From: Sphingopyxis sp. LC81
GTDB lineage: Bacteria > Pseudomonadota > Alphaproteobacteria > Sphingomonadales > Sphingomonadaceae
Length of the DNA: 64,000 bases
Assembly: GCF_000756375.1 (NCBI RefSeq)
Contig: NZ_JNFD01000007.1
Coordinates: 1 to 64,000, forward strand
Direction: 5' to 3'
The notes beneath the pieces were generated by a model. It did no database searches, had not been told where the DNA came from, and worked only from the letters and a program-made list of their open reading frames with translations. Each line of letters begins with the position of its first letter. Positions within the stretch are counted from its first letter, which is position 1. The translations under genes were made by a program, and so were the position numbers. Below, piece after piece: positions 9,705 through 63,585 of this stretch.

Positions 9705-9714
9705 GATCCGCCTT

Positions 9715-9996
9715 TCACTTGCGGACTTTTGAAGGGTAGCCAGCGTTGGTGGTCGCCGCGACCAGCGCTTTTGTGCTCGTTTTGGCATCATCATAGGTAA
9801 CCGTCGCGGTGTGCGCTTCGGCTGACACTTCGACGGCGGTCACGCCGGGAACGCGCGACAGGCTCTTTTTGACGACGGGGCCGCAAGTCACGCACGTCAT
9901 ATTCTCGACGGCCAGCGTGACGGTCCGGATTGCTGCAAAGGCGGGACCGGATGCGAACATCACAGCCACGGTTGCGAACAGGGCAAGCTTCTTCAT
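9715..9996 (-). CDS. merP: Periplasmic mercury-binding protein
   Basis: A 93-residue protein with a signal peptide (cleavage after AFA, about residue 21) and one HMA domain. The metal-binding motif is MTCVTC at residues 33-38, the usual M-T-C-x-x-C. It binds Hg(II) in the periplasm and passes it to MerT. It lies 14 bases after merT and 10 bases before merA in the same operon. Confidence 0.93.
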   Translation of the reverse strand: MKKLALFATVAVMFASGPAFAAIRTVTLAVENMTCVTCGPVVKKSLSRVPGVTAVEVSAEAHTATVTYDDAKTSTKALVAATTNAGYPSKVRK

Positions 9997-10010
9997 GATG
10001 GTCTCCTTGT

Positions 10011-10382
10011 TCAAACTTCGAGGAATAGGGGGGCGAGATAGGGGAAGAGGACGGCGAGGCCGACCAGCGCCGTTGCAAGCCACAACGCCGTTTTTGCCAG
10101 GCGGTTGGAGGCAGGCGTGCCGCATTCGTCCGCCGCGCAGACTGCCTGCGGCCGACGATATATCTTCCAGAACCCGGCGGCCAGAAAGGCGATGGCCACC
10201 GCCAGGAAGATGGGCTGATAGGGGGCGAGCGCGGTCAGGTTGCCGATCCAAGCGCCGCTGACACCCAGCATGAAGAGCACCAGCGGGACGATACAACACG
10301 AGGCTGCACCAAGCGCGCCGAGACTTCCTCCGGCGATCGCAAACCACGCGGAGCGCCTGGAAGCCATTTTCGGCTGAGTCAT
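10011..10382 (-). CDS. merT: Mercury transport membrane protein
   Basis: A 123-residue inner-membrane protein with three predicted helices. The first helix carries the vicinal pair SCC near residue 29, and the loop after helix two carries AVCAADEC, the second cysteine pair. Both are characteristic of MerT, which moves Hg(II) from MerP to cytoplasmic MerA. It is the first gene after the mer promoter. Confidence 0.95.
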   Translation of the reverse strand: MTQPKMASRRSAWFAIAGGSLGALGAASCCIVPLVLFMLGVSGAWIGNLTALAPYQPIFLAVAIAFLAAGFWKIYRRPQAVCAADECGTPASNRLAKTALWLATALVGLAVLFPYLAPLFLEV

Positions 10383-10412
10383 TTTCTGTTCTCCGAATCA
10401 CCTAGTTGACCC

Positions 10413-10443
10413 TAGATAGGATCTGTAGTGGCTACAGATACAA
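10413..10443 (-). promoter_or_regulatory. merT promoter with MerR operator
   Basis: On the minus strand, TTGTAT (10438-10443) and TATCTA (10413-10418) are separated by exactly 19 bases, the over-long spacer typical of MerR-activated promoters. The spacer region holds a perfect 8-bp dyad, ATCTGTAG-CCA-CTACAGAT. It lies between the divergent merT and merR genes. Confidence 0.85.
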
Positions 10444-10456
10444 GAGGTATTTCAGC

Positions 10457-10903
10457 ATGGATCGGAAAAATCTCGGGGACACGGCGCCCCGGCTTCCAAT
10501 CGGGGTGCTGTCGCGGCGTACCGGGTGCAATATCGAGACCATCCGCTACTATGAGAAAGTCGGCCTGCTGCCGGCGCCGGCGCGCAGCGACGGCGGTCAC
10601 CGGCTCTATGGTCATGGCCATTTCATGCGCCTCGGCTTTGTGCGGCGTGCGCGGGAACTGGGCTTCACGTTGGACGAGATCCGCGCGCTGCTACAGCTGG
10701 CCGAGGATCGCGACCGTCCGTGCGCCGAAGCGCGCGAGGTCGCCGTAGTCCATCTCGAGGACGTCCGCACCAAGATCGCGGATCTTCAGGCCATGGAGGC
10801 AGTGCTTGCCGAAACCGTTGTGCGATGCGCGGACGGCCAGACGCCGGAGTGTCCGTTGCTGGAGACATTATTCGGTTCGTTCGATCCGTCTGCGGGCAAG
10901 TGA
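10457..10903 (+). CDS. merR: Mercury-responsive MerR-family regulator
   Basis: A 148-residue regulator. The N-terminal winged helix contains IGVLSRRTGCNIETIRYYEKVGLLPAP, followed by a long dimer helix. The three mercury-binding cysteines are visible: PCAEA near residue 84, then RCADGQTPEC near residues 119-128. It should bind the dyad between itself and merT, repressing without and activating with Hg(II). The start at 10457 (MDRKN) is chosen over an upstream in-frame ATG because AAGAGG precedes it and the upstream frame overlaps the promoter. Confidence 0.93.
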   Translation: MDRKNLGDTAPRLPIGVLSRRTGCNIETIRYYEKVGLLPAPARSDGGHRLYGHGHFMRLGFVRRARELGFTLDEIRALLQLAEDRDRPCAEAREVAVVHLEDVRTKIADLQAMEAVLAETVVRCADGQTPECPLLETLFGSFDPSAGK

Positions 10904-20916: not shown

Positions 20917-21672
20917 TCAAGCGCCCGGCAATTCCGCCAGCTGCGCGGGAGTGGCAACCGGCTCTTGCCGATCTTTGCGTTCCGAATAGCGGTCAACGAG
21001 CTGGTCGGCATGGCTGCGCGTAAGGACGGTGAAGCGGACAAGCTCCTCGGCGACGTCGACGATCCGGTCGTAATAGCTCGACGGCAGCATGCGGCCGGCT
21101 TCGTCGAACTCCTGCCAGGCCTTCGCCACGCTCGACTGGTTGGGGATGGTGATCATCCGCATCCAGCGGCCGAGGATGCGGAGCGTGTTGACGCTGTTGA
21201 AGGACTGCGACCCAGCCGACACCTGCATCACCGCGAGCGTGCGCCCCTGCGTTGGACGGAGGCCTTTATAGGCGAGCGGAAGATGATCGACCTGCGCTTT
21301 CATGATACCGGTTATCTGTCCATGGCGCTCGGGGCTGCACCAGACCTGGCCTTCGGACCAGATCGAATGCTGCCTGAGTTCCTCGACCGCCGGATGATCG
21401 TCGTCGGCGATCTGGTCAGGGAGCGGCAAGTCGGACGGGTCGAAGATGCGTGTCTCGCAGCCGAAGAGCTGGAGCAGGCGCGCCGTCTCCTCGACGACGA
21501 GCCGCGAATAGGAGCGCTCGCGCAACGAGCCGTAGAGCAGCAGGATGCGCGGCGCGGGATCGAGCGGGCCGAGGCCGAGCGCGGGCTGCGCGCGAAGATA
21601 TGCCGGGCTGAGCGCCGGGAGATGGTTCGGGTCCGAGAGTGTTCGAAGGCGGCTGTGGGTCTGTTCTGTCAT
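20917..21672 (-). CDS. arsH: Arsenical resistance flavoprotein ArsH
   Basis: A 251-residue NADPH-dependent FMN reductase-family protein. Landmarks are [19 protein letters not shown] near residue 42 (FMN phosphate site), [23 protein letters not shown] near residue 110, and [16 protein letters not shown]. ArsH oxidises trivalent organoarsenicals or defends against arsenic-driven oxidative stress. It is last in the ars operon, five bases after acr3. Confidence 0.93.
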
Positions 21673-21677
21673 GATAC

Positions 21678-22745
21678 TCAGGCTTGTGAAGGCGTGGTGG
21701 CCGGGAACCAGCGGCGCCCGAGGCGAAAGGCGACGCCGACGAGCAGGATGAGGACGGGCACTTCGACGAGCGGGCCTATGACGGCGGCGAAGGCCACCGG
21801 CGAAGCAAGGCCGAAGGCGGCGATCGCGACAGCGATCGCGAGTTCGAAATTATTGCCCGCGGCCGTGAAGGCGACTGCCGTCGTGCGGGGATAATCGGCC
21901 TCGATCAGCTTCCCCATCCAGAAGCTGATGAGGAATTGCACGACGAAGTAGATGGTGAGCGGGATTGCGATCCGGACGACGTCGGCAGGGATGGTGACGA
22001 TCTCGCCGCCCTTGAGGCTGAACATCGCGACGATCGTGAACAGCAGCGAGACGAGCGTGATCGGGCCGATCCTGGGCAGGAAGCGCGTCTCGTACCATTC
22101 ATCGCCTTTCGCGCGGGCTAGGAAGCGGCGCGTGAGATAGCCAGCGAGGAAGGGGATGCCGAGATAGATGAGCACGGCCTCCGCGATCGTCCAGAAGCCT
22201 ACATCGATGACGCTGCCTTCGAGGCCGAAGAGCGGCGGCAGCACGGTGAGGAAGAACCAGGCATAAACGCTGAAGAAGAGTATCTGAAAGATCGAGTTGA
22301 AGGCGACGAGCGCCGCGACATATTGATTGTCGCCCTTGGCCAGCTGGTTCCACACGATCACCATCGCGATGCAGCGGGCGAGCCCGATCAGGATCAGGCC
22401 GGTCATATATTCGGGCCTGTCCGCGAGGAAGATGACCGCGAGCGCGAACATGAGCACGGGTCCGATAATCCAGTTCTGGATCAGCGAAATCGCCAGAACG
22501 CGCTTGTCCTCGAACACGCGCGGCAGTTCATCGTAGCGCACGCGGGCGAGCGGCGGATACATCATCAGGATGAGGCCGATCGCGATCGGGATGTTCGTCG
22601 TGCCCACCGACATGGCATCGATCGCGGCAGGCAGGCCCTTGAACAGCGATCCCAAGAGGACGCCGAGCGCCATCGCGAGGAAGATCCAGAGCGTCAGATA
22701 GCGGTCGAGGAACGACAGGCGTTCGCTCTTTGCGGCGGCGGTCAT
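21678..22745 (-). CDS. Arsenite efflux transporter ACR3
   Basis: A 355-residue inner-membrane protein with about ten helices. Family landmarks are the [13 protein letters not shown] start, [29 protein letters not shown] near residue 50, [19 protein letters not shown] near residue 122 (conserved Cys), and [17 protein letters not shown] near residue 300. It extrudes As(III) using the proton gradient. The ATG at 22745 has GGAGAG upstream. It lies 10 bases after arsC and 5 bases before arsH. Confidence 0.93.
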
Positions 22746-22755
22746 TACGCTCTCC

Positions 22756-23187
22756 TCAGGCCTGTACGCGATTGCCGTCGTTATCGACGACCTGTTCGCC
22801 GTCTTCCTTGGCGAAAGCGCCAAGCTGGCGTGTGGGGAGGATGTCGAGCACCGCTTCGGACGGCCGGCAGAGCTTGACCCCGAGCGGCGACACGACGAGC
22901 GGGCGGTTGATGAGGATCGGATGCGCCATCATTGCATCGATGAGCGCGCTGTCGCCAAGGCTTGCGTCGCCGAGGCCTAGGTCAGCATAAGGCGTGCCTT
23001 TCTCGCGGAGCAGCTCGCGCGGTGCGATACCGGCGCGCTCGATCAATTGCTCGAGCAAGGCGCGCGAAGGCGGCGTCTTCAGATATTCGATGACATGCGG
23101 CTCGATCCCGGCATTGCGGATGAGCGCGAGCGTGTTGCGCGACGTGCCGCATTCCGAATTGTGATAGATGATGATGTCGGCGGTCAT
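22756..23187 (-). CDS. arsC: Arsenate reductase, glutaredoxin-dependent type
   Basis: A 143-residue ArsC of the glutaredoxin-coupled family. The active site is ECGTSRN (Cys13), followed by EYLKTPPS near residue 34, and ILINRPLV near residue 90 with the conserved arginine. It reduces As(V) to As(III). Its start overlaps the stop of the upstream phosphatase-type ArsC by four bases, so two unrelated arsenate reductases are coupled in the same operon. Confidence 0.93.
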
Positions 23188-23705
23188 GCGTTGGCCTCCC
23201 GTCCGCCGGTGGCGCCTTCGGTGCGGCCGATTTCCTTGAGCTTCCGATCCATCGCCATCTCGTCGATGCTTTCGTGCGGGAGCGCGAGGAAGAGCGAGAT
23301 GCGGTTCGAGAGATAATGGAGTGCATGTTCAAAGGCTTCGCGCTGACCGGGGCCTTCGACCGCGGCGGGATCCTCGATCCCCCAATGCGCATTCATCGGC
23401 TTGCCTGGCCAGACGGGGCAGGTTTCGCCCGCCGCATTGTCGCAGACGGTGAAGATGAAATCGAACACCGGCGCATCGGGCTTCGAGAACTCGTCCCAGC
23501 TCTTCGAGCGGAGGTCCGCAGTCTCGAAACCGAGCTCATCGAGAAGGGCGAGTGCCTGCGGATGGACCTCGCCCTTGGGGAAACTGCCCGCGCTGTAGGC
23601 GCGAAAGCGCCCCTTGCCGTCGCGGTTCAGCAAGGCCTCGGCGAGGATCGAGCGCGCGCTGTTGCCGGTGCACAGGAACAGCACGTTGTAAATCTTGTCG
23701 GCCAT
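23184..23705 (-). CDS. Arsenate reductase, low-molecular-weight phosphatase type
   Basis: A 173-residue ArsC of the thioredoxin or mycothiol/phosphatase-like family. The phosphate loop is LCTGNSARS (residues 11-19), followed by SAGSFPKGEVHP near residue 38, then FIFTVCDNAAGETCPVWPG near residue 83 with the second and third cysteines. It reduces As(V) by a different chemistry from the adjacent ArsC. It is second in the operon after arsR. Confidence 0.92.
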   Translation of the reverse strand: MADKIYNVLFLCTGNSARSILAEALLNRDGKGRFRAYSAGSFPKGEVHPQALALLDELGFETADLRSKSWDEFSKPDAPVFDFIFTVCDNAAGETCPVWPGKPMNAHWGIEDPAAVEGPGQREAFEHALHYLSNRISLFLALPHESIDEMAMDRKLKEIGRTEGATGGREANA

Positions 23706-23735
23706 GAAATTCTCCCTCGGCGCAGGTCGCGCCGA

Positions 23736-24065
23736 TCAGCAGCAGGAAAGTTCGGCGAGGAGCGGCTCGCATAGTTCGGCGCGGCCCTGGCAGCAGTCTT
23801 TCGCGAGGAAGATCATCAGACCCTTCAGCGCATCGATCTCCGCGCGTTGGATGAACTGACGCCCGCGCTTTTCCGATTTGACCAAACCGGCCTTTGCCAA
23901 GACCGCAAGATGTGTGGAGAACGTGCTTTGGGACAGCCCCGAAGCATCCACGAGCTGGCCGGTCGACAGGCCTTCAGGCTCATGCTGGACCAGTAAACGG
24001 AAAGCTTCGAGACGGGTAGGATGAGACAGCGCGGCGAGTGCGGCAAGGGCGGTGTCGGTGTTCAT
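23736..24065 (-). CDS. arsR: Arsenite-responsive ArsR/SmtB repressor
   Basis: A 109-residue repressor with a winged helix: LSHPTRLEAFRLL near residue 13, and GLSQSTFSTHLAVLAKAGLV near residue 43. Cysteines lie only in the C-terminal part: DCCQGRAELC near residue 89 and a terminal Cys-Cys, a plausible As(III) site. It is the first gene of the operon arsR-arsC-arsC-acr3-arsH. The promoter prediction puts the transcription start very near or at its ATG. Confidence 0.92.
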   Translation of the reverse strand: MNTDTALAALAALSHPTRLEAFRLLVQHEPEGLSTGQLVDASGLSQSTFSTHLAVLAKAGLVKSEKRGRQFIQRAEIDALKGLMIFLAKDCCQGRAELCEPLLAELSCC

Positions 24066-51008: not shown

Positions 51009-51052
51009 CCTTGGTTGGGCTCCATCGGGGATGGCCCCGACCAACCAAGGAG
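51009..51052 (+). promoter_or_regulatory. Leader hairpin next to the ribosome site of the first DUF736 gene
   Basis: A perfect 10-bp inverted repeat, CCTTGGTTGG (51009-51018) and CCAACCAAGG (51041-51050), with inner pairing (GGGC..CCAT against ATGG..CCC). The 3' arm contains the AAGG of the AAGGAG ribosome site (51047-51052) for the ATG at 51060. Folding would hide part of the ribosome site. Confidence 0.55.
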
Positions 51053-51059
51053 ACAACCT

Positions 51060-51380
51060 ATGGCCACCATCGCAAATCTCACCGTCAAGGCCGACGGCAG
51101 CTTCGAGGGCACGCTCGCGACCCTCAATGTCACCGCGCCGATCGCGATCGTTCCGAACGGCCGCAAGGCCAAGGACAGCGAACCCGACTATCGCGTCATC
51201 AGCCGCAAGAATGGCTTCGAGCTCGGCGCCGGCTGGAAGCGCTTTTCGCAGGCCAACGGCGCTGAATATGTGTCGGTGACGATGTCGGCCCCCGAGTTCG
51301 GGACCATCTACGGCAATGTCGCCAACGCCCCCGGCGACGATCCGATGAAGAAGGTCATCATCTGGAATCCGCCGGCCTGA
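51060..51380 (+). CDS. DUF736 protein, first copy
   Basis: A 106-residue protein of the DUF736 family: MATIANLTVKADGSFEGTLATLN at the start (in short, a beta-strand repeat), APIAIVPN, DYRVI near residue 44, GAGWKR near residue 56, and VSVTMSAPEFG near residue 72. DUF736 proteins are typical passengers of alphaproteobacterial conjugative elements and are not characterised. The start has a good AAGGAG. A terminator follows closely, so it is likely a single-gene unit. Two other copies lie at 52908 and 55561. Confidence 0.85.
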   Translation: MATIANLTVKADGSFEGTLATLNVTAPIAIVPNGRKAKDSEPDYRVISRKNGFELGAGWKRFSQANGAEYVSVTMSAPEFGTIYGNVANAPGDDPMKKVIIWNPPA

Positions 51381-52907: not shown

Positions 52908-53225
52908 ATGGCCAGAATCGGCACGTTCAAGAAGGTCTCCGGTGAATATCGGGGTCAAATCATCACCCTCTCGGTGCAGGCGAAATCGGTTCGCATCGTT
53001 CCCGAAGACAAGCCGAGCGGCAACGCCCCGAGCCATCGCGTCTTCATCGGCGAGGCCGAGGTCGGCGCGGCCTGGGAAAAGCAGACGCAGGACAAGCGCG
53101 CTTATCTGTCGGTCAAGCTCGACGATCCGAGCTTCGCTGCGCCCATCTTCGCCCAGCTTTTCGCCGGCGAAGACGATGCGCACGATCTGGTCTGGAGCCG
53201 CCAGACCCGCCGCGGCGGAGATTGA
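52908..53225 (+). CDS. DUF736 protein, second copy
   Basis: A 105-residue DUF736 protein: MARIGTFKKVSGEYRGQIITL at the start (first residues), SHRVFIG near residue 43, GAAWEK near residue 53, AYLSVKLDDPSFAAPIFAQLF near residue 65, and LVWSR near residue 95. This is the canonical form of the family, closer to the third copy than to the first. AAGGAAAGGA precedes the ATG. A strong terminator follows. Confidence 0.88.
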   Translation: MARIGTFKKVSGEYRGQIITLSVQAKSVRIVPEDKPSGNAPSHRVFIGEAEVGAAWEKQTQDKRAYLSVKLDDPSFAAPIFAQLFAGEDDAHDLVWSRQTRRGGD

Positions 53226-53233
53226 GCCGCCGC

Positions 53234-53264
53234 ATCCCGCCCGGCAGGTGCTGCCGGGCGGGAT
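53234..53264 (+). terminator. Hairpin terminator after the second DUF736 gene
   Basis: A perfect 13-bp stem, ATCCCGCCCGGCA (53234-53246) and TGCCGGGCGGGAT (53252-53264), with a 5-base loop, followed by ACCCATTTCT. Confidence 0.75.
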
Positions 53265-53353
53265 ACCCATTTCTGGGGAGCGGCCTCCTGCCATCTTGGA
53301 ATAGGCTGGCCCGGTGCGATCGCGATGCTGCCGTCATCCTGAAAGAGGCGGCA

Positions 53354-53566
53354 GTGGCAGACATGACCGGATCTCAGATCACGCAGCGGGCGCCGCTCGA
53401 TTTTCCGGGCTTCGCGCAGGAGTTTCTGCGCCGCAATCCTGCCTACTCCCAAGACCATGACAGGGTCATGTCCGGCGCCCGGCGCGGCGACGCGGCGGCG
53501 CGGGAGGTGGTGGCCCGGCGTTGGGGTCTTTGCTTTCCCCTGCTCGCCGACTGCCTCCGCGCGTGA
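53354..53566 (+). CDS. DUF6499-type N-terminal half of an FseA-like activator
   Basis: A 70-residue open frame with the DUF6499 pattern LDFPGFAQEFLRRNPAY near residues 13-30 and RRWGLCFP near the end. In ICEs of the ICEMlSymR7A type, this domain is made in fusion with a following DUF2285 protein by programmed +1 ribosomal frameshift. The fused product FseA activates the excisionase gene rdfS. Here the DUF2285 frame overlaps in the +1 register, and the next gene is an RdfS-like protein. A GTG at 53354 behind AGAGG is used. The ATG at 53363 is possible. Confidence 0.7.
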   Translation: MADMTGSQITQRAPLDFPGFAQEFLRRNPAYSQDHDRVMSGARRGDAAAREVVARRWGLCFPLLADCLRA

Positions 53567-54143
53567 CAGCCCGGCACTCTGGTCGGCCGCCTTCTGTGGT
53601 TACACCAACATATTCGATGCCGCGCCGCCGGGATGCGGTGGCGCACCCTTCGCGGTGTGGCCTGCGCACTCTGTCGCGGCCGATCAGACATTGCCCGATG
53701 GGAGGCATCTCGTACTCTTCGGCGGCGGCGAATGGCATCGACTGTGGCTTCGCATCGATGATCCTGGTGTCCCGCTTGCGAGCCTGATCCTTCACGATGG
53801 TCTGGTCGACCTGCGCCGCGCGGCGGCCGGCAGGCTCGATTCATGGAGGGGTGGTGCGACCGGCCGGGCGCCGGCGGGATTCTTGCCGACCGCTTATCAG
53901 GCGCATCGTCTCGGCACCATGCTCGCCATTCTCGATCTGATGCAGGGGCCGGAGGGCGGCGGTGTCACGTCGCACGATGTCGCGCGCCGGATCATTTATC
54001 CGGGCCTGTCGGTCGGGCGCGGCGCCGAATGGAAATCCTCGTCCGAACGTCGGCGGACCCAGCGGCTGATCGAGGAAGCGCGCGCCCTGATGCAGGGCGG
54101 CTACCGGGCGCTCCTCGCCGGCCCGTCGGGGCGACAAAAATAG
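53457..54143 (+). CDS. DUF2285 half of an FseA-like excision activator (in +1 frame)
   Basis: The DUF2285 domain (about residues 60-228) shows LPDGRHLVLFGGGEWHRLWLRIDD near residue 78, YQAHRLGTMLAILDLMQGPEGG near residue 145, VARRIIYPGL, and RGAEWKSSSERRRTQRLIEEARALMQGGYRALL near the end. The first 40 or so residues are the wrong-frame reading of the DUF6499 gene and look artificial, so the natural product is probably the +1 frameshift fusion (about 262 residues from 53354). Possible slip codons CTT-T, TTT-C and CCC-C lie at 53528-53540. If unshifted, no good start codon lies near the domain. This supports a fused activator. Confidence 0.7.
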   Translation: MTGSCPAPGAATRRRGRWWPGVGVFAFPCSPTASARDSPALWSAAFCGYTNIFDAAPPGCGGAPFAVWPAHSVAADQTLPDGRHLVLFGGGEWHRLWLRIDDPGVPLASLILHDGLVDLRRAAAGRLDSWRGGATGRAPAGFLPTAYQAHRLGTMLAILDLMQGPEGGGVTSHDVARRIIYPGLSVGRGAEWKSSSERRRTQRLIEEARALMQGGYRALLAGPSGRQK

Positions 54144-54246
54144 CCGCGCCTTTTAGCCGCTCCGCCTCCCGGACCTCCTCGCGCCACGACGCTCCACGAC
54201 CCGCCGCACCGGCTTTTCCGGCCCGGCAGCTGGAAGGAGCACGCGA

Positions 54247-54498
54247 ATGAATTCCCCCTTTCCCGTGGCTGGCCCGCGCTACCTCAGAACCCCCGATGCT
54301 GCGGTGCATCTCGGCCTCTCGGCCCGAACCCTCGAAAAGCACCGCTGCTACGGCACGGGGCCGACGTACCGCAAGCTCGGTGGACGCGTCGTCTATGCGA
54401 TCGAAGAGCTCGACGCCTGGGCCGAGATCGGCCGCCGCAGCTCGACATCGGATCCGGGCAAGGGCACCGTCCATCCAGCACGGCCGGTGCGCCGCTGA
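54247..54498 (+). CDS. RdfS/AlpA-type excisionase (HTH_17)
   Basis: An 83-residue protein with a MerR/AlpA-like winged helix: YLRTPDAAVHLGLSARTLEKHRCYGTGPTYRKLGGRVVYAIEELDAW (in short segments, residues 12-58). RdfS of ICEMlSymR7A is of this type. It directs the integrase to excise the element. GGAAGGAG lies before the ATG. The 103-base gap after the FseA-like gene should hold its promoter. Its stop overlaps the DUF2840 start (TGATG), so it is coupled to the transfer genes. Confidence 0.75.
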   Translation: MNSPFPVAGPRYLRTPDAAVHLGLSARTLEKHRCYGTGPTYRKLGGRVVYAIEELDAWAEIGRRSSTSDPGKGTVHPARPVRR

Positions 54499-55001
54499 TG
54501 CCGGACCATAGTCTCTCCGGGGCGGGAATAGCGGCGCGCCTGCCGTTGACCGAGGTCGAACTGACCTGGATCGCGGGCCGTACCGAGCAATGGATCCGCT
54601 TCGGCCGCGTCGCGGCCGAGCGCATCGTCAGCCGCCGCACGCGCATCGTCATGTTTCGTCCGGGCGCGCTCTTCGCCTTCGTGCGCTGGACGTCCAACGA
54701 CTTCGGCACCATCCATTCGAATATAGCAATCGCTGCCGCAACGGCGCTCGGCGAACCCTATGCCACCTTGCCGTTCGTTCGCCCCGGCGCCGAAATCCTG
54801 GCGCGCATCGACGGTTGGCCGAAAGTGCAGAAGGTGCTTGAGGCGATCGATGCGGTGGAAGCCGCCGGCATCGACGCGTGCGATGCGGCGCCCGATCATT
54901 GGCGCCATGTGGGCAGCCGGATCGCAGCCGGCTTGCCGTTCCGGCCCTATAGCATCGACCGCCACACGGCATGGCTTCGCCGCCGGGCAGTCGAGTCATG
55001 A
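54498..55001 (+). CDS. DUF2840 domain-containing protein
   Basis: A 167-residue DUF2840 protein: LTEVELTWIAGRTEQWIRFGR near residue 17, VMFRPGALFAFVRW near residue 51, and LPFVRPGAEILARIDGWPKVQKVLEAID near residue 90. The family is known only from conjugative elements next to traF. It is probably an accessory factor for DNA transfer. It overlaps RdfS (TGATG) and TraF (ATGA) on either side. Confidence 0.88.
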   Translation: MPDHSLSGAGIAARLPLTEVELTWIAGRTEQWIRFGRVAAERIVSRRTRIVMFRPGALFAFVRWTSNDFGTIHSNIAIAAATALGEPYATLPFVRPGAEILARIDGWPKVQKVLEAIDAVEAAGIDACDAAPDHWRHVGSRIAAGLPFRPYSIDRHTAWLRRRAVES

Positions 55002-55564
55002 ACCGCCGGGCGCTTCACGCCACGGCGGCGGCCGCAACGCTGTTCGGCACCCTGTTCGCGGCGGTCGCCTGGCTGAAGCCGGCGCCGCGGCTCCTCTGGA
55101 ATGCGAGCGCCAGTGCGCCGACGGGACTCTACAGGATCGACGCCGGCGCGCAGCCGCGGCTCGGCGACCTGGTCGCCATCGCCCCGCCGCCCGCGCTCGC
55201 GGCTTTCCTGACGCGGCGCGGATATCTGCCGCAGGGCGTGCCGCTGCTGAAGCGGGTTGTCGGCCTCCCCGGCGCCCTCGTCTGCCGTTCCGGCACCTTT
55301 GTCACCGTCAATGGGGCAGGCGTCGCCCGCGCGCTGGCGCGCGACCGGGCGAACCGTCCGCTGCCTGTCTGGGGCGGCTGCCGGGTCGTCGGGCGCGGTG
55401 AATATTTCCTCGTCAATGCGGCGCGAGACAGTCTCGATGGCCGCTATTTCGGACCGGTTTCGGCTGCGGGCCTGATCGGCACCGCGCATCCGGTTCTCAC
55501 GCGCTCGAATGCCGGGACAGCGGCCGGCGCACTTTCCATCACCACGAAGGAGAAGGACAGATGA
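54998..55564 (+). CDS. TraF-type S26 signal peptidase
   Basis: A 188-residue inner-membrane peptidase of the TraF family: N-terminal helix, SASAPTGLYRI near residue 38 (serine nucleophile region), LLKRVVGLPGALVCRSG near residue 80 (general-base lysine), and NAARDSLDGRYFGPV near residue 140. TraF matures the pilin TrbC by cyclisation in trb-type systems. It overlaps DUF2840 and DUF736 genes by four bases at each end. Confidence 0.9.
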   Translation: MNRRALHATAAAATLFGTLFAAVAWLKPAPRLLWNASASAPTGLYRIDAGAQPRLGDLVAIAPPPALAAFLTRRGYLPQGVPLLKRVVGLPGALVCRSGTFVTVNGAGVARALARDRANRPLPVWGGCRVVGRGEYFLVNAARDSLDGRYFGPVSAAGLIGTAHPVLTRSNAGTAAGALSITTKEKDR

Positions 55565-55893
55565 TCATCGGTACGATGCGCGGGAAAGCCGCGGCAGGTT
55601 TTACGGGCTCGATCAAAACACTCGCGTTTGATGCGCCGATCACGCTCGTGAAGGCGCCCTTCTCTGAAAATGAAAATGCGCCCGAGTGGCGAATCCTGAT
55701 CGGCGATCCGGCGCTCGGCGCCGAGATCGGCGCCGGCTGGGACCGCGCGGGATCGCGCGGCTATTATATCGCCCTGCAGATCGACGACCCGAGCCTTGCA
55801 GCCCCGCTGCGCGCGAACATGGTGCGTCTTGGCGATGATCTCGGCTGCTTTTCGCTCCTCTGGTCGCGCCCCGAACCGCAGGGCGGGAACTGA
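55561..55893 (+). CDS. DUF736 protein, third copy
   Basis: A 110-residue DUF736 protein: MIIGTMRGKAAAGFTGSIKTL (start), WRILIG near residue 43, GAEIGAGWDRAG near residue 54, YYIALQIDDPSLAAPL near residue 68, and FSLLWSRPE near the end. Unlike the other copies it is embedded in the traF-relaxase operon, coupled to traF by ATGA. Confidence 0.88.
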   Translation: MIIGTMRGKAAAGFTGSIKTLAFDAPITLVKAPFSENENAPEWRILIGDPALGAEIGAGWDRAGSRGYYIALQIDDPSLAAPLRANMVRLGDDLGCFSLLWSRPEPQGGN

Positions 55894-56604: not shown

Positions 56605-56689
56605 GGTCCCGCGGTCTTGAAGCTGTTTGCCGAGGGTCTGGTTCCCGGGTTCCGCAACCTTGCAGCAAGGGAAATTCGGGAGGGCAAGA

Positions 56690-56823
56690 TAAAAGCCGTG
56701 CCAGCTTCGGGCACGGGATGGTCGGTTTCCTGCGGCCTTGCGCGTATGGCACTGCCGAAATCAGCCATACAAATCGGAGGAACGCGGGCGTCTCCGCGCC
56801 CTTTTCGTATGGCACCGATCCTC
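56690..56823 (+). other. Possible oriT region
   Basis: The gap before the relaxase has two inverted repeats: CCGTGCC (56696-56702) with GGCACGG (56710-56716), and GTATGGC (56744-56750) with GCCATAC (56764-56770). Between them lies GGTTTCCTGCGG, which resembles the nic core (TCCTGC) of IncP-type origins. A second GTATGGC follows at about 56808. Position, stem and nic-like core agree with an oriT, but no direct similarity to a known oriT was established. Confidence 0.4.
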
Positions 56824-58569
56824 ATGCGCGGTGACGACGGAGAATTCCGGGTCAGGCCGGGACGGAGCCGCGATCGCGGGGCGGGGTCGGCGAGCAAAGG
56901 CAAACGGCTCGCGGCCCAGGTCCGCAAGGCCGCCGCCCGATCGGGCTATACCCGCTCGCGGTCCGGCCGAGGCTCTGGCGGCGGAACCGGCGCACATGGC
57001 CGGGGCCGGCGGGCCATGGCCGCGATGCAGCGCCAGCCGGGTGCCCGGCGCGTCACCGTCATGGCGCGCGTCGTCCGTCATCAGGGCGCGCGGTTTCGCG
57101 CCGCGCCGCTGGCGCGCCACATCCGCTATCTCGAGCGCGACGGCGTCACCCGCGACGGCCGTGATGCAAGCATGTTCGACGCGGACGGCGACGCGGCCGA
57201 TCGTGATGCGTTCGCCGAGCGTTGCGAGGATGACCGGCATCATTTCCGGCTGATCGTCAGCCCCGAGGACGCGGCCGATCTCGGCGACCTTCGTACCTTC
57301 ACCCGCGACCTCATGACCGACATGGCGAAGGATCTCGATACCCGCCTCGACTGGGTGGCGGTCGACCATTGGAACACCGACAATCCCCACATCCATATTC
57401 TCGTGCGCGGCGTCGCCGACGATGGCTCCGATCTCGTCATCGACCGCGGCTATATTGCCGCCGGCATTCGCGGGCGGGCCGAAGTCTCGGCAACGCTGGA
57501 GCTTGGCCCGCGCAGCGAGTTCGACATCCAGAACGCCCTGGCGCGCGAAGTCGATGCCGAGCGCTGGACGAGCCTGGATGTCCGGCTGCAGAGGATGGCG
57601 GACGATGCGGGCGGCGTTGTCGATCTTCGGCCAGCGACGGGCGAAGACCGGAAGATGCATGGCTTGCTCGTCGGCCGCGCAGCGAAGCTCGAGCAGATGG
57701 GGCTCGCCGAACGGCAATGTGCAGGGCTCTGGTCGCTTGGTGCCGGCGCTGAGACGACGCTCCGCGAGGTCGCGGTGCGCGGCGACATCATCAAGACGAT
57801 GCACCGCGCGCTGTCGCGCGGCGGCGGCCGCTTCGATCCCGCCGCGCTCGCGCTTCACGATGGCGTGCCCGGGAGTCCAATCCTGGGCCGGCTCGTCGAG
57901 CGGGGGCTCCATGACGAGCTTGCGGGCAATGCCTATGCGATCGTCGACGGCGCCGATGGGCGCACGCACCATATCCGGTTCGACGACCTGGAGATGACCG
58001 GCGACGCGAGGCCCGGCGCGATCGTCGAACTGCGCAGCTGGGAGGATGGCAAGGGGCGCACACGACTGTCGCTCGCGACCCGCTCGGACCTGCCGCTCGT
58101 ATCGCAGGTGACGGCGCCGGGCGCCACCTGGCTCGACCGGCAACTCGTCGCGCGCGACCCGGCCCTCTGCGGGAACGGGTTCGGGCTCGAGATCCGCCAG
58201 GCGATGGACGAGCGGACGCGCTATCTCGTCGAACAGGGGCTCGCGTCGCGAAGCGGCGGGCGGTTGACCCTGGCGACGGGGCTCATCGACAAGCTCGCGT
58301 CGCGCGAGCTCGACGCCGCCACCGCATCGATTGCCGAACGGACGGGCCTTTCGCCCCGGCCCTCGGCCGCCGGCGAATATGTGAGCGGCATTTACCGCGA
58401 GCGGGTGACCCTCGCATCGGGGCGCTTCGCCATGATCGACGATGGGCTGGGCTTCCAGCTCGTACCCTGGCGCCCCGCGCTCGACCGCCATCTCGGCCAG
58501 CACATCACCGGCACCATGTCGCCCGGCGGCTCGGTCGATTGGGCGCTGGGCCGTGGCATCGGCATCTAG
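56824..58569 (+). CDS. VirD2-like relaxase (MOBP/RlxS type)
   Basis: A 581-residue protein of the relaxase/mobilisation nuclease family. The basic N-terminus (RVRPGRSRDRG) leads into RRVTVMARVVRHQG, then HIRYLERDGV near residue 100, DRHHFRLIVSPED near residue 137, and the metal-binding histidine motif DHWNTDNPHIHILVRG near residue 181. The C-terminal half (DUF3363-like) contains ATWLDRQLV near residue 435. It nicks oriT and leads the strand into the VirD4 channel. The start at 56824 is chosen by comparison with related N-termini. Open frame upstream to 56617 is probably not translated, as it covers the oriT candidate. Confidence 0.9.
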   Translation: MRGDDGEFRVRPGRSRDRGAGSASKGKRLAAQVRKAAARSGYTRSRSGRGSGGGTGAHGRGRRAMAAMQRQPGARRVTVMARVVRHQGARFRAAPLARHIRYLERDGVTRDGRDASMFDADGDAADRDAFAERCEDDRHHFRLIVSPEDAADLGDLRTFTRDLMTDMAKDLDTRLDWVAVDHWNTDNPHIHILVRGVADDGSDLVIDRGYIAAGIRGRAEVSATLELGPRSEFDIQNALAREVDAERWTSLDVRLQRMADDAGGVVDLRPATGEDRKMHGLLVGRAAKLEQMGLAERQCAGLWSLGAGAETTLREVAVRGDIIKTMHRALSRGGGRFDPAALALHDGVPGSPILGRLVERGLHDELAGNAYAIVDGADGRTHHIRFDDLEMTGDARPGAIVELRSWEDGKGRTRLSLATRSDLPLVSQVTAPGATWLDRQLVARDPALCGNGFGLEIRQAMDERTRYLVEQGLASRSGGRLTLATGLIDKLASRELDAATASIAERTGLSPRPSAAGEYVSGIYRERVTLASGRFAMIDDGLGFQLVPWRPALDRHLGQHITGTMSPGGSVDWALGRGIGI

Positions 58570-58583
58570 AAAGGCAAATCGAG

Positions 58584-60596
58584 GTGAACGACAAGATCCT
58601 CTGGGGACAGATCGCGGCGGTCGGTACGATCGTGATTCTCGCGATATGGGCGGCGACGCAGTGGACAGCGGCCGCGCTCGGGTTTCAGGCGGCGCTCGGC
58701 GCGCCATGGTTCCGCATCGGCGATTATCCCGTCTACCCGCCGCCCGCCTTCTTCTGGTGGTGGTTCGTCTATGACGCTTATGCGCCGCCGATCTTCTATC
58801 GCGGCGCGATGATCGCCGCGTCGGGCGGCTTCCTTTCGATCATCGTGGCGATCGCGATGTCGGTGTTGCGCGCTCGCGAGCGCCGCCGCGCCGAGACTTA
58901 TGGCTCGGCGCGCTGGGCCGATACCGCCGAAATCCGGCGTGCAGGGATGCTCGGCGATACCGGCGTGATCCTCGGCCAATATCGGCGCCACTATCTGCGC
59001 CATGACGGCGCCGAGCATATCCTCTGCTTCGCGCCGACCCGCTCGGGAAAGGGCGTGGGGCTCGTGGTTCCGACCTTGCTCACCTGGCCCGGCAGCTGCA
59101 TCGTCCACGACATCAAGGGCGAGAATTGGCAGCTGACGTCGGGCTTTCGCGCGAAGCACGGCCGTGTCCTGCTCTTCGATCCGACCAACATCGGCTCGGC
59201 CGCCTATAATCCGCTGCTCGAAGTCAGGCGGGGTGAATGGGAAGTGCGCGACGTGCAGAATGTCGCCGACGTGCTCGTCGATCCCGAAGGCAGCCTCGAG
59301 AAGCGCAACCATTGGGAGAAGACCAGCCACTCGCTCCTCGTGGGCGCGATCCTGCATGTCCTCTATGCCGAGGAAGACAAGTCGCTCGCGGGCGTCGCGG
59401 CCTTCCTGTCGGACCCGCGCCGCGGGATCGCGACGACCCTGCGGATCATGCAGACGACCGCGCATCTCGGCGAAGCGGGCGTCCATCCCGTGGTCGCCTC
59501 GGCGGCGCAGGACCTTCTCAATAAATCGGCGAACGAGCGATCGGGCGTGCTTTCGACAGCGATGTCCTTTTTGGGGCTGTACCGCGACCCGGTGATCGCG
59601 GCGGTAACCCGGCGATCGGACTGGCGCATCGCCGACCTGGTGACGGGTGAGGTGCCTACCTCGCTCTATCTGGTCGTCCCGCCCGGCGATATCAGCCGCA
59701 CCAAGCCTCTCATTCGGCTCATCCTCAATCAGGTCGGGCGGCGCCTGACCGAAGAACTCAATCCTGCGGCGAGGCCGCAACGCTTCTTGCTGATGCTCGA
59801 CGAATTCCCGGTGCTCGGACGGCTCGACTTTTTCGAGAGCGCGCTCGCCTTCATGGCCGGCTACGGGATCAAGGCCTTCCTGATCGCCCAGTCGCTCAAT
59901 CAGATCGAGAAGGCCTACGGGCAAAACAATGCTATCCTCGACAATTGTCATGTCCGTGTGAGTTTCGCGACCAATGACGAGCGCACCGCCAAACGCATCT
60001 CCGACGCGCTCGGCACCGCGACCGAAATGCGCGCGATGAAGAATTATGCCGGCCACCGGCTGTCGCCCTGGCTCGGCCATCTCATGGTGTCGCGCACCGA
60101 AACCGCCCGCGCCTTGCTGACGCCCGGCGAGGTCATGCAGCTTCCGCCCGATCAGGAAATCGTGATGGTGGCCGGCGTCGCTCCGATCCGCGCGAGCAAG
60201 GCGCGTTATTATACCGATCCCCGATTCAAGGCGCGGCTCCTGCCTCCGCCTCCGCCGCCGGAAGCGCGCGAGGCCCGACCCGACGACTGGAGTTCGCTGG
60301 AACGTCCGGCGGTTTTGCCGGGCAATGTCGCCCACATGGCGGACAGCGATGAGATCGTCGATGCGGCCGAAAGCGAGGAGCAAGATGACGACACCAACGG
60401 CGGCATCCGGCAGGAGCCCGCGATCCCCGATCATGAGAATATCGCACCCGAACCTCGCGCGGGAACCAGCGAGTTCGACTTTGGGAATGAGTCCCGAGAC
60501 GATGATCCGGTTCGGGAGCGGAAGGCCATCGAGGGTGCGATGCGCCGGGGTGCCCGGCTGGCCTCACAGGATCCGGACGATGGGATCGACCTGTGA
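58584..60596 (+). CDS. VirD4/TraG coupling protein
   Basis: A 670-residue inner-membrane ATPase. It has N-terminal helices (about 10-35 and 75-95), Walker A APTRSGKGVG near residue 150, DIKGENW, Walker B FLLMLDEFPVLG near residue 399, and AQSLNQIEKAYGQNNAILDNCHVRVSFA near residue 433. The acidic proline-rich tail (550-670) is variable. It delivers the relaxase-DNA complex to the Trb channel. The GTG at 58584 has AAAGG upstream. It follows the relaxase by 14 bases and overlaps the next gene. Confidence 0.95.
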   Translation: MNDKILWGQIAAVGTIVILAIWAATQWTAAALGFQAALGAPWFRIGDYPVYPPPAFFWWWFVYDAYAPPIFYRGAMIAASGGFLSIIVAIAMSVLRARERRRAETYGSARWADTAEIRRAGMLGDTGVILGQYRRHYLRHDGAEHILCFAPTRSGKGVGLVVPTLLTWPGSCIVHDIKGENWQLTSGFRAKHGRVLLFDPTNIGSAAYNPLLEVRRGEWEVRDVQNVADVLVDPEGSLEKRNHWEKTSHSLLVGAILHVLYAEEDKSLAGVAAFLSDPRRGIATTLRIMQTTAHLGEAGVHPVVASAAQDLLNKSANERSGVLSTAMSFLGLYRDPVIAAVTRRSDWRIADLVTGEVPTSLYLVVPPGDISRTKPLIRLILNQVGRRLTEELNPAARPQRFLLMLDEFPVLGRLDFFESALAFMAGYGIKAFLIAQSLNQIEKAYGQNNAILDNCHVRVSFATNDERTAKRISDALGTATEMRAMKNYAGHRLSPWLGHLMVSRTETARALLTPGEVMQLPPDQEIVMVAGVAPIRASKARYYTDPRFKARLLPPPPPPEAREARPDDWSSLERPAVLPGNVAHMADSDEIVDAAESEEQDDDTNGGIRQEPAIPDHENIAPEPRAGTSEFDFGNESRDDDPVRERKAIEGAMRRGARLASQDPDDGIDL

Positions 60597-61030
60597 GGAA
60601 ATCCTCCGTCAAGCGAACCTTCCGCATCGACGCCGTGCTGGCACGCCAACTCGACGAACGGGCCAGCAGTCGCCGGATCACCCGTACCGATATCGTCGAG
60701 GCCGCGCTCGCATCCTTGCTCACACCCGACCATGAGGAGCGGGTCGAAGCCGTTCTGACCCGCAGGCTCGACCGGATATCGCGGCAGCTCGATCGCCTCG
60801 AATGGAATGTAGAATTATCGAACGAAGGTTTCGCGCTGTTCGTTCGCTCCTGGCTCATCAACCATCCGCCACTCCCCGACGCGGCGCTTCGGGCTGCGCA
60901 GGTCACCGGCAAGAAAAGATGGGAGGCTTTCGTGGAATCGCTCAGCCGCCGCATGGAGCTCGGACCGAAACTCGGTGACGAGCTTTCACGCGACTGCGAC
61001 GGCGATCATTCGTCGCCGGCCGCAAAATAG
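60593..61030 (+). CDS. CopG/ribbon-helix-helix-type protein after traG
   Basis: A 145-residue protein with a ribbon-helix-helix start (RTFRIDAVLARQLDERASSRRITRTDIVEAALASLL, in short: strand at residues 8-12, helix-turn-helix to about 43), a coiled middle, and a WLINHPPLP segment near residue 88. Such proteins are annotated as CopG-family regulators in trb operons. The GTG overlaps the traG stop. Its 3' end overlaps the end of the convergent radC gene by 25 bases. Confidence 0.82.
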   Translation: MRKSSVKRTFRIDAVLARQLDERASSRRITRTDIVEAALASLLTPDHEERVEAVLTRRLDRISRQLDRLEWNVELSNEGFALFVRSWLINHPPLPDAALRAAQVTGKKRWEAFVESLSRRMELGPKLGDELSRDCDGDHSSPAAK

Positions 61031-62070
61031 GCTGTAAGGCGATGCGCGAGATCGGGTGTAAGGCGGATGAAATTGCGTCTGCCGTCTTGGCGGTCGGCTT
61101 CGCGGGTCACCAATCCTGCATCGCAGAGGCGCTGGACCAACCTGAGCGCGCTGCTCATCCCGAGACCCGATGCTATGCCGAGCGAGCTGGTCGATACCGG
61201 CCTTGCTTCGGCTTCATGGATGAAAAGATCGATCAGCATATCCCAAGCGGGCTCGCCGAACAGGTCATCGGCCCCGACGAGTTGGCGGCGGAGCATTCGA
61301 CGCCGGGACGTCCTGTGCGCATTGGCCAGCGCCCGGGCTGTGTCGGGGCCGCCCACCCAATCCGGTGTCTCGCTGCGAAGCATGATCTGCGGCGACGGAG
61401 CAGGACGGGCTGAGGTTCGCCCTTGCAGGATCGTCCGATGTCCGCCGAGTGTTACGACGATATGTTCAACTATTTCGACATTCAGGGACCGTCCAATCGC
61501 GGCCAGTCGCTCGGTTGCTTCGATATCGGACCGGCTTGGCGTCGGGTCGCCGCTTGGATGATTGTGGACGAGGATGATTGCCGCGGCGTCCAGCTCAATG
61601 GCGCGGCGAAATATGGTGCGCGGATAAATTGCGAGTTGCCCGAGCGTCCCATGTTGCAACTGCTCATCGGCGAGAAGACGCCGCGATGTATCGAGGAACA
61701 GCACTCTCAGCACTTCGTCGGACAGCGCTCCCATTGACGTCCTTAAATATCGGAGCAGCCCCGGGTTGGACGGATCGATATCGCAGCCGGCAAGCTCTGC
61801 GCGCATTGCTTCCAGCGTGGCGGCGCGCGCGGCGACGAGCATCGCGGCCACCGGACTGCTCTTGCCCAGCGTGCGCGCCAAGGCTTCGGGTGACCGGGTG
61901 AGAAGTCGCGCGAGCGTGCGATGTTCCGCGAGCAGCGCGTCAGCTACTTCCCGGCTGTTGTCGGGATCGATCGCCGCGACGAGATTTGCCAGGATGGCTC
62001 GTTGTCGCCGCGCGCCAGCCGACGCTGGTGACGCCAGGTTGCGAGGATGAGGATCGCAGGCACCGGCCAT
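61006..62070 (-). CDS. RadC-like JAB-domain protein with C-terminal winged helix
   Basis: A 354-residue protein. The helix-hairpin-helix-like region (about 30-75) precedes the JAB/MPN domain: VLFLDTSRRLLADEQLQHGTLGQLAIYPRTIFRRAIE near residue 122, and IILVHNHPSGDPTPSRSD near residue 165 (His-x-His-x7-Asp metal motif). Residues about 240-354 resemble a MarR/winged-helix domain (MSSALRLVQRLCDAGLVTREADRQDGRRNFIRLT). That added DNA-binding part is unusual. It is inverted relative to the transfer genes and overlaps the gene at 61944 by 127 bases. The start at 62070 is tentative. Confidence 0.8.
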   Translation of the reverse strand: MAGACDPHPRNLASPASAGARRQRAILANLVAAIDPDNSREVADALLAEHRTLARLLTRSPEALARTLGKSSPVAAMLVAARAATLEAMRAELAGCDIDPSNPGLLRYLRTSMGALSDEVLRVLFLDTSRRLLADEQLQHGTLGQLAIYPRTIFRRAIELDAAAIILVHNHPSGDPTPSRSDIEATERLAAIGRSLNVEIVEHIVVTLGGHRTILQGRTSARPAPSPQIMLRSETPDWVGGPDTARALANAHRTSRRRMLRRQLVGADDLFGEPAWDMLIDLFIHEAEARPVSTSSLGIASGLGMSSALRLVQRLCDAGLVTREADRQDGRRNFIRLTPDLAHRLTAYFAAGDE

Positions 62071-62417
62071 GAGGTCGCCACCTGCATCGCGAGATAGGCC
62101 GCCGGATGCAGCGCCACGTCGATGATCCGGCTTGTGTGAGCCAGAAGCGGAACCAGGTGCAAAACGGCGATGCACATGGGCCAGAAACGATGTGCAAAGA
62201 GCGCGAGCGTGACGGTGGCTGCCGCCCCGAACAGGTCGATCGCGAGATGGCCGGTGTCGAGCGATGCGAAGTTCGGCGGAACGAAAGCGTGGAGCAGTTG
62301 GTCCAGCCCCACCATCGTCACGGCTATCGCCGCCATCGCCCGTTCGGGGCCGCCGCCACGCCAGGCGGCATAGCCGACAGCAACGGCCAAGAAAGCAAGA
62401 AACAAGGCTATACGCAC
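61944..62417 (-). CDS. Small membrane protein upstream of radC
   Basis: A 157-residue protein with four hydrophobic segments (about 1-18, 28-45, 58-78 and 83-100, with another at 113-127). No family is recognised. It overlaps radC by 127 bases in another frame. The long overlap means one of the two starts may be wrong. Its hydrophobicity pattern is clean enough that I think the gene is real. Confidence 0.55.
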   Translation of the reverse strand: MRIALFLAFLAVAVGYAAWRGGGPERAMAAIAVTMVGLDQLLHAFVPPNFASLDTGHLAIDLFGAAATVTLALFAHRFWPMCIAVLHLVPLLAHTSRIIDVALHPAAYLAMQVATSWPVPAILILATWRHQRRLARGDNEPSWQISSRRSIPTTAGK

Positions 62418-62458
62418 GCCCTGAGACTTTCACGGCCGTCGCTTCCGGTCAATCGGCA

Positions 62459-62791
62459 TCAGGCGGCTGATGCCCGCGCGCCGGCTCCTGCTTCGGCAAT
62501 CGACGGACATTCGTGGAGATCGTAACCGGCGGTTTCGCGTCCGAGGTCGGCGAGTTCGCCATGAACACGCAGAATGTCGCCGCTGACGCCGACGAGTGCC
62601 GACTGCGCTTTCAGCAGCAGGCGGAGGGTCGCATGACCCTTGGTTGCCGGGACGCCTTTGATGTCCCGCCGCGCTGTGACCACGCTGGTCATCAGCGATG
62701 ACACCGCGATGAGCGCATCGTCGACTCTCACTTCGGCGGCCGGAACATCGCGGGCCAAGCGTGCTGCCGCGATGGTGATTTCGTTGGACAT
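62459..62791 (-). CDS. Small helical protein of unknown function
   Basis: A 110-residue, alanine-rich, mostly helical protein (AEVRVDDALIAVSSLMTSVVTARRDIKGVP near residue 19, LLLKAQSALVGVSGDILRVHGELADLG near residue 57). AGAGGAG precedes the ATG. No family is recognised. It lies between the LuxR-like gene and the membrane protein on the same strand, probably one operon. Confidence 0.6.
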   Translation of the reverse strand: MSNEITIAAARLARDVPAAEVRVDDALIAVSSLMTSVVTARRDIKGVPATKGHATLRLLLKAQSALVGVSGDILRVHGELADLGRETAGYDLHECPSIAEAGAGARASAA

Positions 62792-62850
62792 GACTTCTCC
62801 TCTGCCGGAAGCGCACGCTCCGGCGATTGATGACGGACAGGATGAAAGAA

Positions 62851-63366
62851 TCAGCCGGAGATCAGCCGGGTCAGCGTTTCGCCGATCGTCACGCCCGCAA
62901 GAGCAAGAAGGATCAGGCCGACAAGCATCGCCGCCATGATCCAGCCCCGGTTCGGGCGGGAGTGATCATGCCTCCAGAGACTCTTGAACAGTGGGTCGTT
63001 CGCGACTGGTTGCTGTGTGAGCGATGTACTATCGTTCAGCGCCAATGCGGCCGGCCCGCCGTCCGGGAAGTCGGATGGCACGAGGTCGGGCGGCGGCGGT
63101 AGTATGACCGCATCCCATGGTATCCGGTCATAGGTCTGCCTGAGGCGTGCATAGCGGATCGCGGTCTCGTCGCGGTTCGCCGCTCCCAATATGTCGCGCG
63201 CGGTCGTGAGCCTCAGATCTACGGCTTGCTTTGAAATATCGAGACGGCGGGCAATTTGCTTCGAAGTCTGCCGCTCGAGCAGCAGATCGAGGCAAGCGCG
63301 TTGCTTGTCCGTGAGGCGCGCCCAGCGCGCTTCGTCCTCTGACGGCTGCGACCCCGAATCAGTCAT
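62851..63366 (-). CDS. LuxR-type HTH protein with C-terminal transmembrane tail
   Basis: A 171-residue protein. The N-terminal LuxR-like helix-turn-helix is seen in ARLTDKQRACLDLLLERQTSKQIARRLDISKQAVDLRL (in short, residues 15-52). The middle is proline-rich. A transmembrane helix lies near the end (about 140-162, WIMAAMLVGLILLALAGVTI). There is no autoinducer domain. It is placed to regulate the divergent trbB operon, 219 bases away, from the membrane. Confidence 0.75.
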   Translation of the reverse strand: MTDSGSQPSEDEARWARLTDKQRACLDLLLERQTSKQIARRLDISKQAVDLRLTTARDILGAANRDETAIRYARLRQTYDRIPWDAVILPPPPDLVPSDFPDGGPAALALNDSTSLTQQPVANDPLFKSLWRHDHSRPNRGWIMAAMLVGLILLALAGVTIGETLTRLISG

Positions 63367-63585
63367 TGTTACACTCTTGTCAAAATCGGGCCGAACACAA
63401 GCTACCGGACCCGATATGCGGTTTCTTGGAGGATGTTACCCGAGCGGCGCCTACGCCGCTCCCTGTCTTTCTTCGCCATTGTACGACGCGAACAAAAGCT
63501 TGTTGAATCGCATCCTTCTCTGCGTCTCTTACTCGTCCCCGTCGAACGGGGCGCCCTTGCCCCGGGTCAAGAAACGGGGATATCG

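Follow-up and report, generated by a model that had tools for sequence, protein, structure and literature searches.

Two overlapping reading frames and their relatives

The window, a stretch of 64,000 nucleotides from Sphingopyxis sp. LC81, harbors two overlapping reading frames on its forward strand. The first (53354–53566) encodes a DUF6499 domain, and the second, an open reading frame from 53457 to 54143 that is displaced by +1, encodes a DUF2285 domain. This arrangement had been described in a preceding sequence-only reading, and frame arithmetic as well as the matches to PF20109 and PF10074, both above the Pfam cut-offs, agree with it. Each of the two profiles finds one match in the whole 4.4 Mb genome (E ≤ 0.001), NCBIfam yielded no match for either part, and an Rfam search of positions 53000–54800 returned two matches only, both far under the gathering scores. 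The features around the junction are:

53354–53566, forward strand: putative fseA part 1, 0 frame, DUF6499 (PF20109, E 2.7e-16), with AQEFLRRN inside and a TGA stop at 53564–53566
53522–53527, forward strand: UGGGGU, Shine-Dalgarno-like, encoding Trp-Gly before the slip site; UGGGGG in most split relatives
53534–53537, forward strand: candidate +1 slip site UUU-C (Phe codon plus C), based on codon conservation in split relatives
53538–54143, forward strand: putative fseA part 2, +1 frame, middle domain and DUF2285 (RovC_DNA-bd; PF10074, E 7.6e-21)

Translation of the DUF6499 frame is likely to start at GTG 53354, with the sequence AAAGAGG situated 5 nt upstream; in the relative L003, a GTG at the equivalent position is preceded by GGAGG, also 5 nt upstream (both by eye). 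The PF20109 match extends 3 codons beyond the Leu codon of the motif WGL. Within the +1 frame, start codons are absent between ATG 53457 (77 nt before the UUU codon) and GTG 53655 (121 nt after it), and no ribosome site is visible by eye upstream of ATG 53457, in line with the earlier remark that the DUF2285 frame lacks a believable start.

For comparison, 397 genomes of the family were searched, 135 of which contain PF20109, and the best matches, about 150, were taken as loci. This resulted in 157 sphingomonad-family loci: the window plus 7 (from a set of genome contigs), 30 and 119 (family search, among the matches listed). Removal of 11 duplicates left 146 unique loci among the matches listed, comprising 125 split loci with a +1 displacement, 15 loci in one frame, 2 with 'shift 2' and 4 with no DUF2285 match, the last two groups being left out of the split and fused counts. 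Outside the family, profile searches of 289 genomes of the class and 398 of the phylum, both sets including the window's own genome, revealed 17 and 43 genomes with PF20109, respectively. The outside set consists of 46 loci and 2 plasmid loci (48 in all, duplicates kept in). Of these, 47 were scorable, with 34 split loci, 10 fused ones, 1 with another shift and 2 with no DUF2285.

A lone +1 displacement resembles an indel, as would be left by a sequencing error or by the decay of a pseudogene. Against this stands the equal displacement of 125 of the 146 unique family loci listed, together with dN/dS values below 0.5 on both sides of the junction against the four nearest relatives tested. In comparison with L003, L004 and L006, dN/dS amounts to 0.37–0.46 for DUF6499, 0.24 for the +1 frame and 0.25–0.27 for its first 100 codons; the corresponding values against L009 are 0.30, 0.41 and 0.39. 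These ratios indicate purifying selection before and after the junction, for which reason a pseudogene was rejected. Since the relation is shared so widely and dN/dS is low on both sides, the +1 arrangement is not due to chance, and a pseudogene or sequencing error is regarded as exceedingly improbable.

Alternatively, two separate proteins could be made, DUF2285 from a start of its own, the pair representing two subunits or including a QseM-like antiactivator. The halves are indeed annotated as two separate CDS on plasmids pMC4 and pBSY18_2, and for the homologous genes rihF1b and rihF1a of Azorhizobium caulinodans, the authors hold that each is bounded by a start and an end codon of its own, with no frameshift (PMC9601964); elsewhere, two-gene annotation of split fseA is described as misannotation (PMC10359603). 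An independent DUF2285 start was rejected, since 99 of the 122 split genes listed have no ATG, GTG or TTG in the +1 frame between −9 and +30; in 45 of these 122 listed genes the frame is open without any upstream start. Separate proteins are further contradicted by purifying selection over the first 100 +1-frame codons after the junction, by the UUU-C conservation described below, which they would leave unexplained, and by the existence of natural fusions among the relatives. The conceptual fusion, a joining already proposed from the window, aligns with these naturally fused proteins at 24–30% identity and with no gap at the junction. Production of two independent proteins thus appears highly improbable.

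A profile built jointly from the fusion and related sequences matches RovC (PDB-ID: 6xz5) in two stretches (E 4.5e-13). A phmmer search of the PDB with the fusion alone gave just two chance-like ribosomal matches, and a predicted model of the naturally fused relatives (pLDDT 64.9, low confidence) did not resemble any solved fold at E ≤ 0.001. The α2 motif of the window, AQEFLRRN, shares 7 of 8 letters with AWEFLRRN, Gln replacing Trp, and is found in 32 of 123 split loci (matches listed). At the Trp position, these 123 listed loci display Trp (43), Gln (34), Ala (18) or another residue (2), the remaining 26 being unscored by the pattern.

Conservation of the candidate slip site

Three slip-prone contexts had been pointed out by the sequence-only reading, namely CTT-T (53528), TTT-C (53534) and CCC-C (53537). 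All three are present in the window; the choice between them, which had been left open, is not open, as conservation favours UUU-C at 53534–53537. With the Leu codon of WGL as anchor, the second codon after Leu was scored as slip codon, and this fixed codon is UUU in 122 of the 125 unique split family loci listed. After re-anchoring by eye, in-frame UUU-C is also seen in L091 and, two codons later, in L145; counting both after the fact raises the number to 124 of the 125 split loci listed, leaving L029 as the sole one of them lacking UUU. UUU is followed by C in 118 of the 122 listed split genes and by T in the other 4. Among the naturally in-frame relatives listed, UUU occurs in 3 of 15, a difference with a Fisher p of 2.7e-12 that is uncorrected for kinship. 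The background share of UUU among the Phe codons of split genes is 95/294 before and 171/549 after the slip site. Of the three contexts, TTT-C alone is conserved across the family (matches listed), and CCC-C, unlike TTT-C not conserved, was rejected as slip site.

In the outside set, UUU is found in 32 of 34 split loci and in 0 of 10 fused loci, the latter count being weakened by 5 fused rows that lack the WG anchor. When the sphingomonad rows L159, L160, L206, L207 and L210 are removed, 27 of 29 split loci carry UUU. Outside exceptions are L202, which lacks UUU, and L184, with UUU-C one codon later. The relative L156 has UUC and no frame change at the junction, which gives it the look of a former frameshift gene turned into a fusion, but a second frame break precedes DUF2285.

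The influence of kinship can be judged from a tree of 138 sequences, 123 of them split, from which L043 and L061 (split, with a stop inside DUF6499) were omitted. L091 was set to UUU by hand, the slip columns were kept in the alignment and long-branch warnings were issued. Among the 123 split genes, UUU changes 2 times on this tree, the Leu codon 44 times, the neighbouring x codon 33 times and GGG 13 times; the split or fused state undergoes three changes. Because the neighbour codons change 44 and 33 times as against 2 for UUU, conservation of UUU is not due to kinship.

The position of the shift can be bracketed by individual relatives. Six split loci read YTG-AGC-UUU, with UGA in the +1 frame as a consequence. 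Shifts upstream of the Leu codon are thereby excluded, and slippage on that codon itself would oblige the tRNA to re-pair on UGA, an unlikely event. Three loci have a 0-frame stop that follows UUU by one codon, which makes that codon the latest place for their shift. UUU is the sole invariant codon within the bracketed interval, which points to UUU-C at 53534–53537 as the most likely slip site.

Slippage at CTT-T (53528–53531) instead would resemble that of prfB and yield Leu-Ala-Phe-Pro rather than Leu-Cys-Phe-Pro, a difference of one residue. CUU-U is the known slip sequence of RF2, and in the window's closest clade (the window, L003, L004, L005, L006 and L009) CTT-TGC-UUU-C is retained as a block, so that conservation within this clade alone is compatible with either place. 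Across the family, CTT is found at the Leu codon in just 18 of the 125 unique split loci listed and undergoes 10 changes on the tree. The six relatives mentioned above would depend on re-pairing on UGA, and the invariance of UUU would be left without explanation. Altogether, a slip at CTT-T is considered unlikely in comparison with UUU-C.

A second in-frame UUU-C occurs upstream in 36 of 122 split genes (in the window at 53402–53405, by eye), and UUU-C alone is therefore insufficient as a signal and needs context. The Gly codon before the slip site is GGG in 86 of the 122 split genes with UUU; of the Gly codons further upstream, 58 of 281 are GGG. The median predicted anti-Shine-Dalgarno pairing is −9.6 in split genes, −2.7 in control windows and −5.9 in fused relatives. 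Both the GGG excess and the stronger pairing of split genes fit a published remark on UGGGGG (PMC10359603). The window itself has GGU as Gly codon and a pairing of −5.9 kcal/mol, which equals the fused median and is reached by 12% of control windows. No stimulatory RNA structure was found in the window (z −0.84 and −0.05), and a downstream structure was rejected as stimulator, given z-scores of −0.84 to 0.30 over the four stretches folded.

Downstream genes and element context

The putative fseA gene is followed on the same strand by conserved blocks and by genes of conjugative transfer:

54128–54140, forward strand: conserved block GGGGCGACAAAAA at the fseA end, invariant in 8/8 aligned sequences
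54155–54163, forward strand: conserved block AGCCGCTCC, 5' of the rdfS-like gene, invariant in 8/8 aligned sequences
54247–54498, forward strand: rdfS-like helix-turn-helix gene (HTH_17; PF12728, E 1.9e-7), proposed target
54498–55001, forward strand: DUF2840 gene (PF11000, E 3.6e-68)
54971–55564, forward strand: traF-like S26 peptidase (PF10502, E 4.9e-25)
56617–58569, forward strand: RlxS-like relaxase (DUF3363, E 1.4e-81; NF041267 relax_RlxS 539.8 bits, below the cut-off of 850)
58539–60596, forward strand: TraG/VirD4 coupling protein (PF02534, E 2e-102)

A DUF736 gene and a lytic transglycosylase are also situated between fseA and the relaxase, and a TrbE match lies on the contig beyond the window (C7:65695). 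An rdfS-like gene is found downstream in 95 of the 146 unique loci listed, and in the 79 of these 95 for which the distance is given, it lies 720–756 nt from the WGL codon.

The published FseA box consists of inverted hexamers 15–16 bp apart near the −35 element of rdfS (PMC10359603). AGCCGCTCC and single bases within 54180–54186, likewise invariant in 8/8 aligned sequences, lie near the published distances, but a clear inverted repeat is absent. Palindrome counting and a motif search, the motif of which was dominated by coding sequence, did not reveal a convincing FseA box. AGCCGCTCC is possibly part of an activator site.

The TraR/TraI and QseM control arms of R7A were not found on this contig. 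Domains of AHL receptors (PF03472) and synthases are absent from it, one of each being located on contig C17, and no lone DUF2285 (QseM) was detected, the genome having one PF10074 match; a diverged QseM could escape this profile. The repA family PF10134 was not found, which leaves plasmid and chromosome both possible as location, and a search of viral contigs gave no match.

Three DUF736 genes surround fseA (51015–51380, 52911–53225 and 55561–55893), and on pMC4 and pBSY18_2 DUF736 directly precedes the DUF6499 gene. No conjugation gene was recognised in 61030–63430, a region bounded by the RHH gene and the genes that precede TrbE; it looks like an insertion. The four frames tested there lack a Pfam match, and a LuxR-type HTH gene (62851–63366) runs in the opposite direction. 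Judged by eye, 8265–10903 and 20917–24065 resemble mercury and arsenic genes. In L159 and L160, the fseA–rdfS-like module resides on plasmids with a MobF relaxase instead of RlxS, so that the module travels with different relaxases.

Proposed expression and comparison with known systems

Taken together, the locus very probably represents an fseA-type gene in which DUF6499 and DUF2285 are joined by a +1 slip at UUU-C. Ribosomes would start at GTG 53354 and read DUF6499 as far as Arg-Trp-Gly-Leu-Cys-Phe. Once UUU occupies the P site, tRNA-Phe, whose anticodon is GAA, may slip one base forward from UUU to UUC; elongation would then proceed in the +1 frame with Pro-Cys-Ser-Pro, followed by the middle domain and finally DUF2285. 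The majority of ribosomes would keep to the 0 frame and terminate at 53564, yielding a short protein with DUF6499 alone. The rare fusion of 262 amino acids could bind DNA and activate the rdfS-like gene together with the transfer genes downstream of it. The frames, the place and conservation of UUU-C, purifying selection on both sides and the gene order are seen in the sequence; the occurrence and rate of frameshifting, the step at tRNA-Phe and the promoter targeted are inferred.

The locus had been read as an FseA-type gene with an excision gate. Domains, frames, UUU-C and the rdfS-like and transfer genes agree with the first part, whereas control of excision is a matter of inference, and since relatives sit on plasmids, the module need not serve excision. 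A further proposal, put forward tentatively and rather doubtful at present, is that the frameshift is the main gate here, UUU-C slippage keeping FseA rare on an element devoid of quorum sensing and QseM, that CUU-UGC-UUU-C may add a second slip codon specific to the clade, and that in plasmid relatives the module switches transfer, not excision.

As public records of relatives show two genes, such a switch of a conjugative element is easily missed. Naming the slip letters by comparison allows a direct test, in which UUU is recoded to UUC and the protein stays unchanged, and the many split relatives, set beside a few natural fusions, offer an experimental system for asking why a frameshift throttle is retained by a mobile element.

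In prfB, which encodes RF2, the ribosome slips by +1 on CUU-U at a stop codon, with a Shine-Dalgarno-like G-run upstream. Such a run also precedes the slip site of the window. In contrast to prfB, the latter is UUU-C, and the 0-frame stop of the family lies from one codon to dozens of codons downstream.

The closest parallel is FseA (msi172-msi171) of ICEMlSymR7A from M. japonicum R7A, which likewise consists of DUF6499 and DUF2285 split by +1, with WGL right before the slip, and which shares one element with rdfS-like, traF, relaxase and traG genes. Relatives of ICEMlSymR7A carry rdfS, traF, rlxS, traG and trb genes, a set that the window resembles (PMC5882170). The window differs from R7A in the Gln of α2, where R7A FseA has Trp32, in AHL receptor and synthase domains confined to another contig, in the lack of a lone DUF2285 by PF10074 and in an unrecognised FseA box. 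Mesorhizobium fseA is located on ICEs and several plasmids (PMC8627217), with which the plasmid-borne modules of pMC4 and pBSY18_2 agree. The rihF1b-rihF1a pair of A. caulinodans ICEAc is a homologous module on an ICE (PMC9601964), interpreted by its authors, unlike the window here, as frameshift-free. RovC of Yersinia, to which the joint profile extends, is published as an activator of the type VI secretion system (PMC10359603). A literature search for FseA in sphingomonads retrieved no relevant paper. FseA, the +1 frameshift behind it and the binding of the protein to DNA are reported from experiments in M. japonicum, and the published homologues number 4709, of which about 61% are split (PMC10359603); the gene of the window adds a member to this already described and widespread group.
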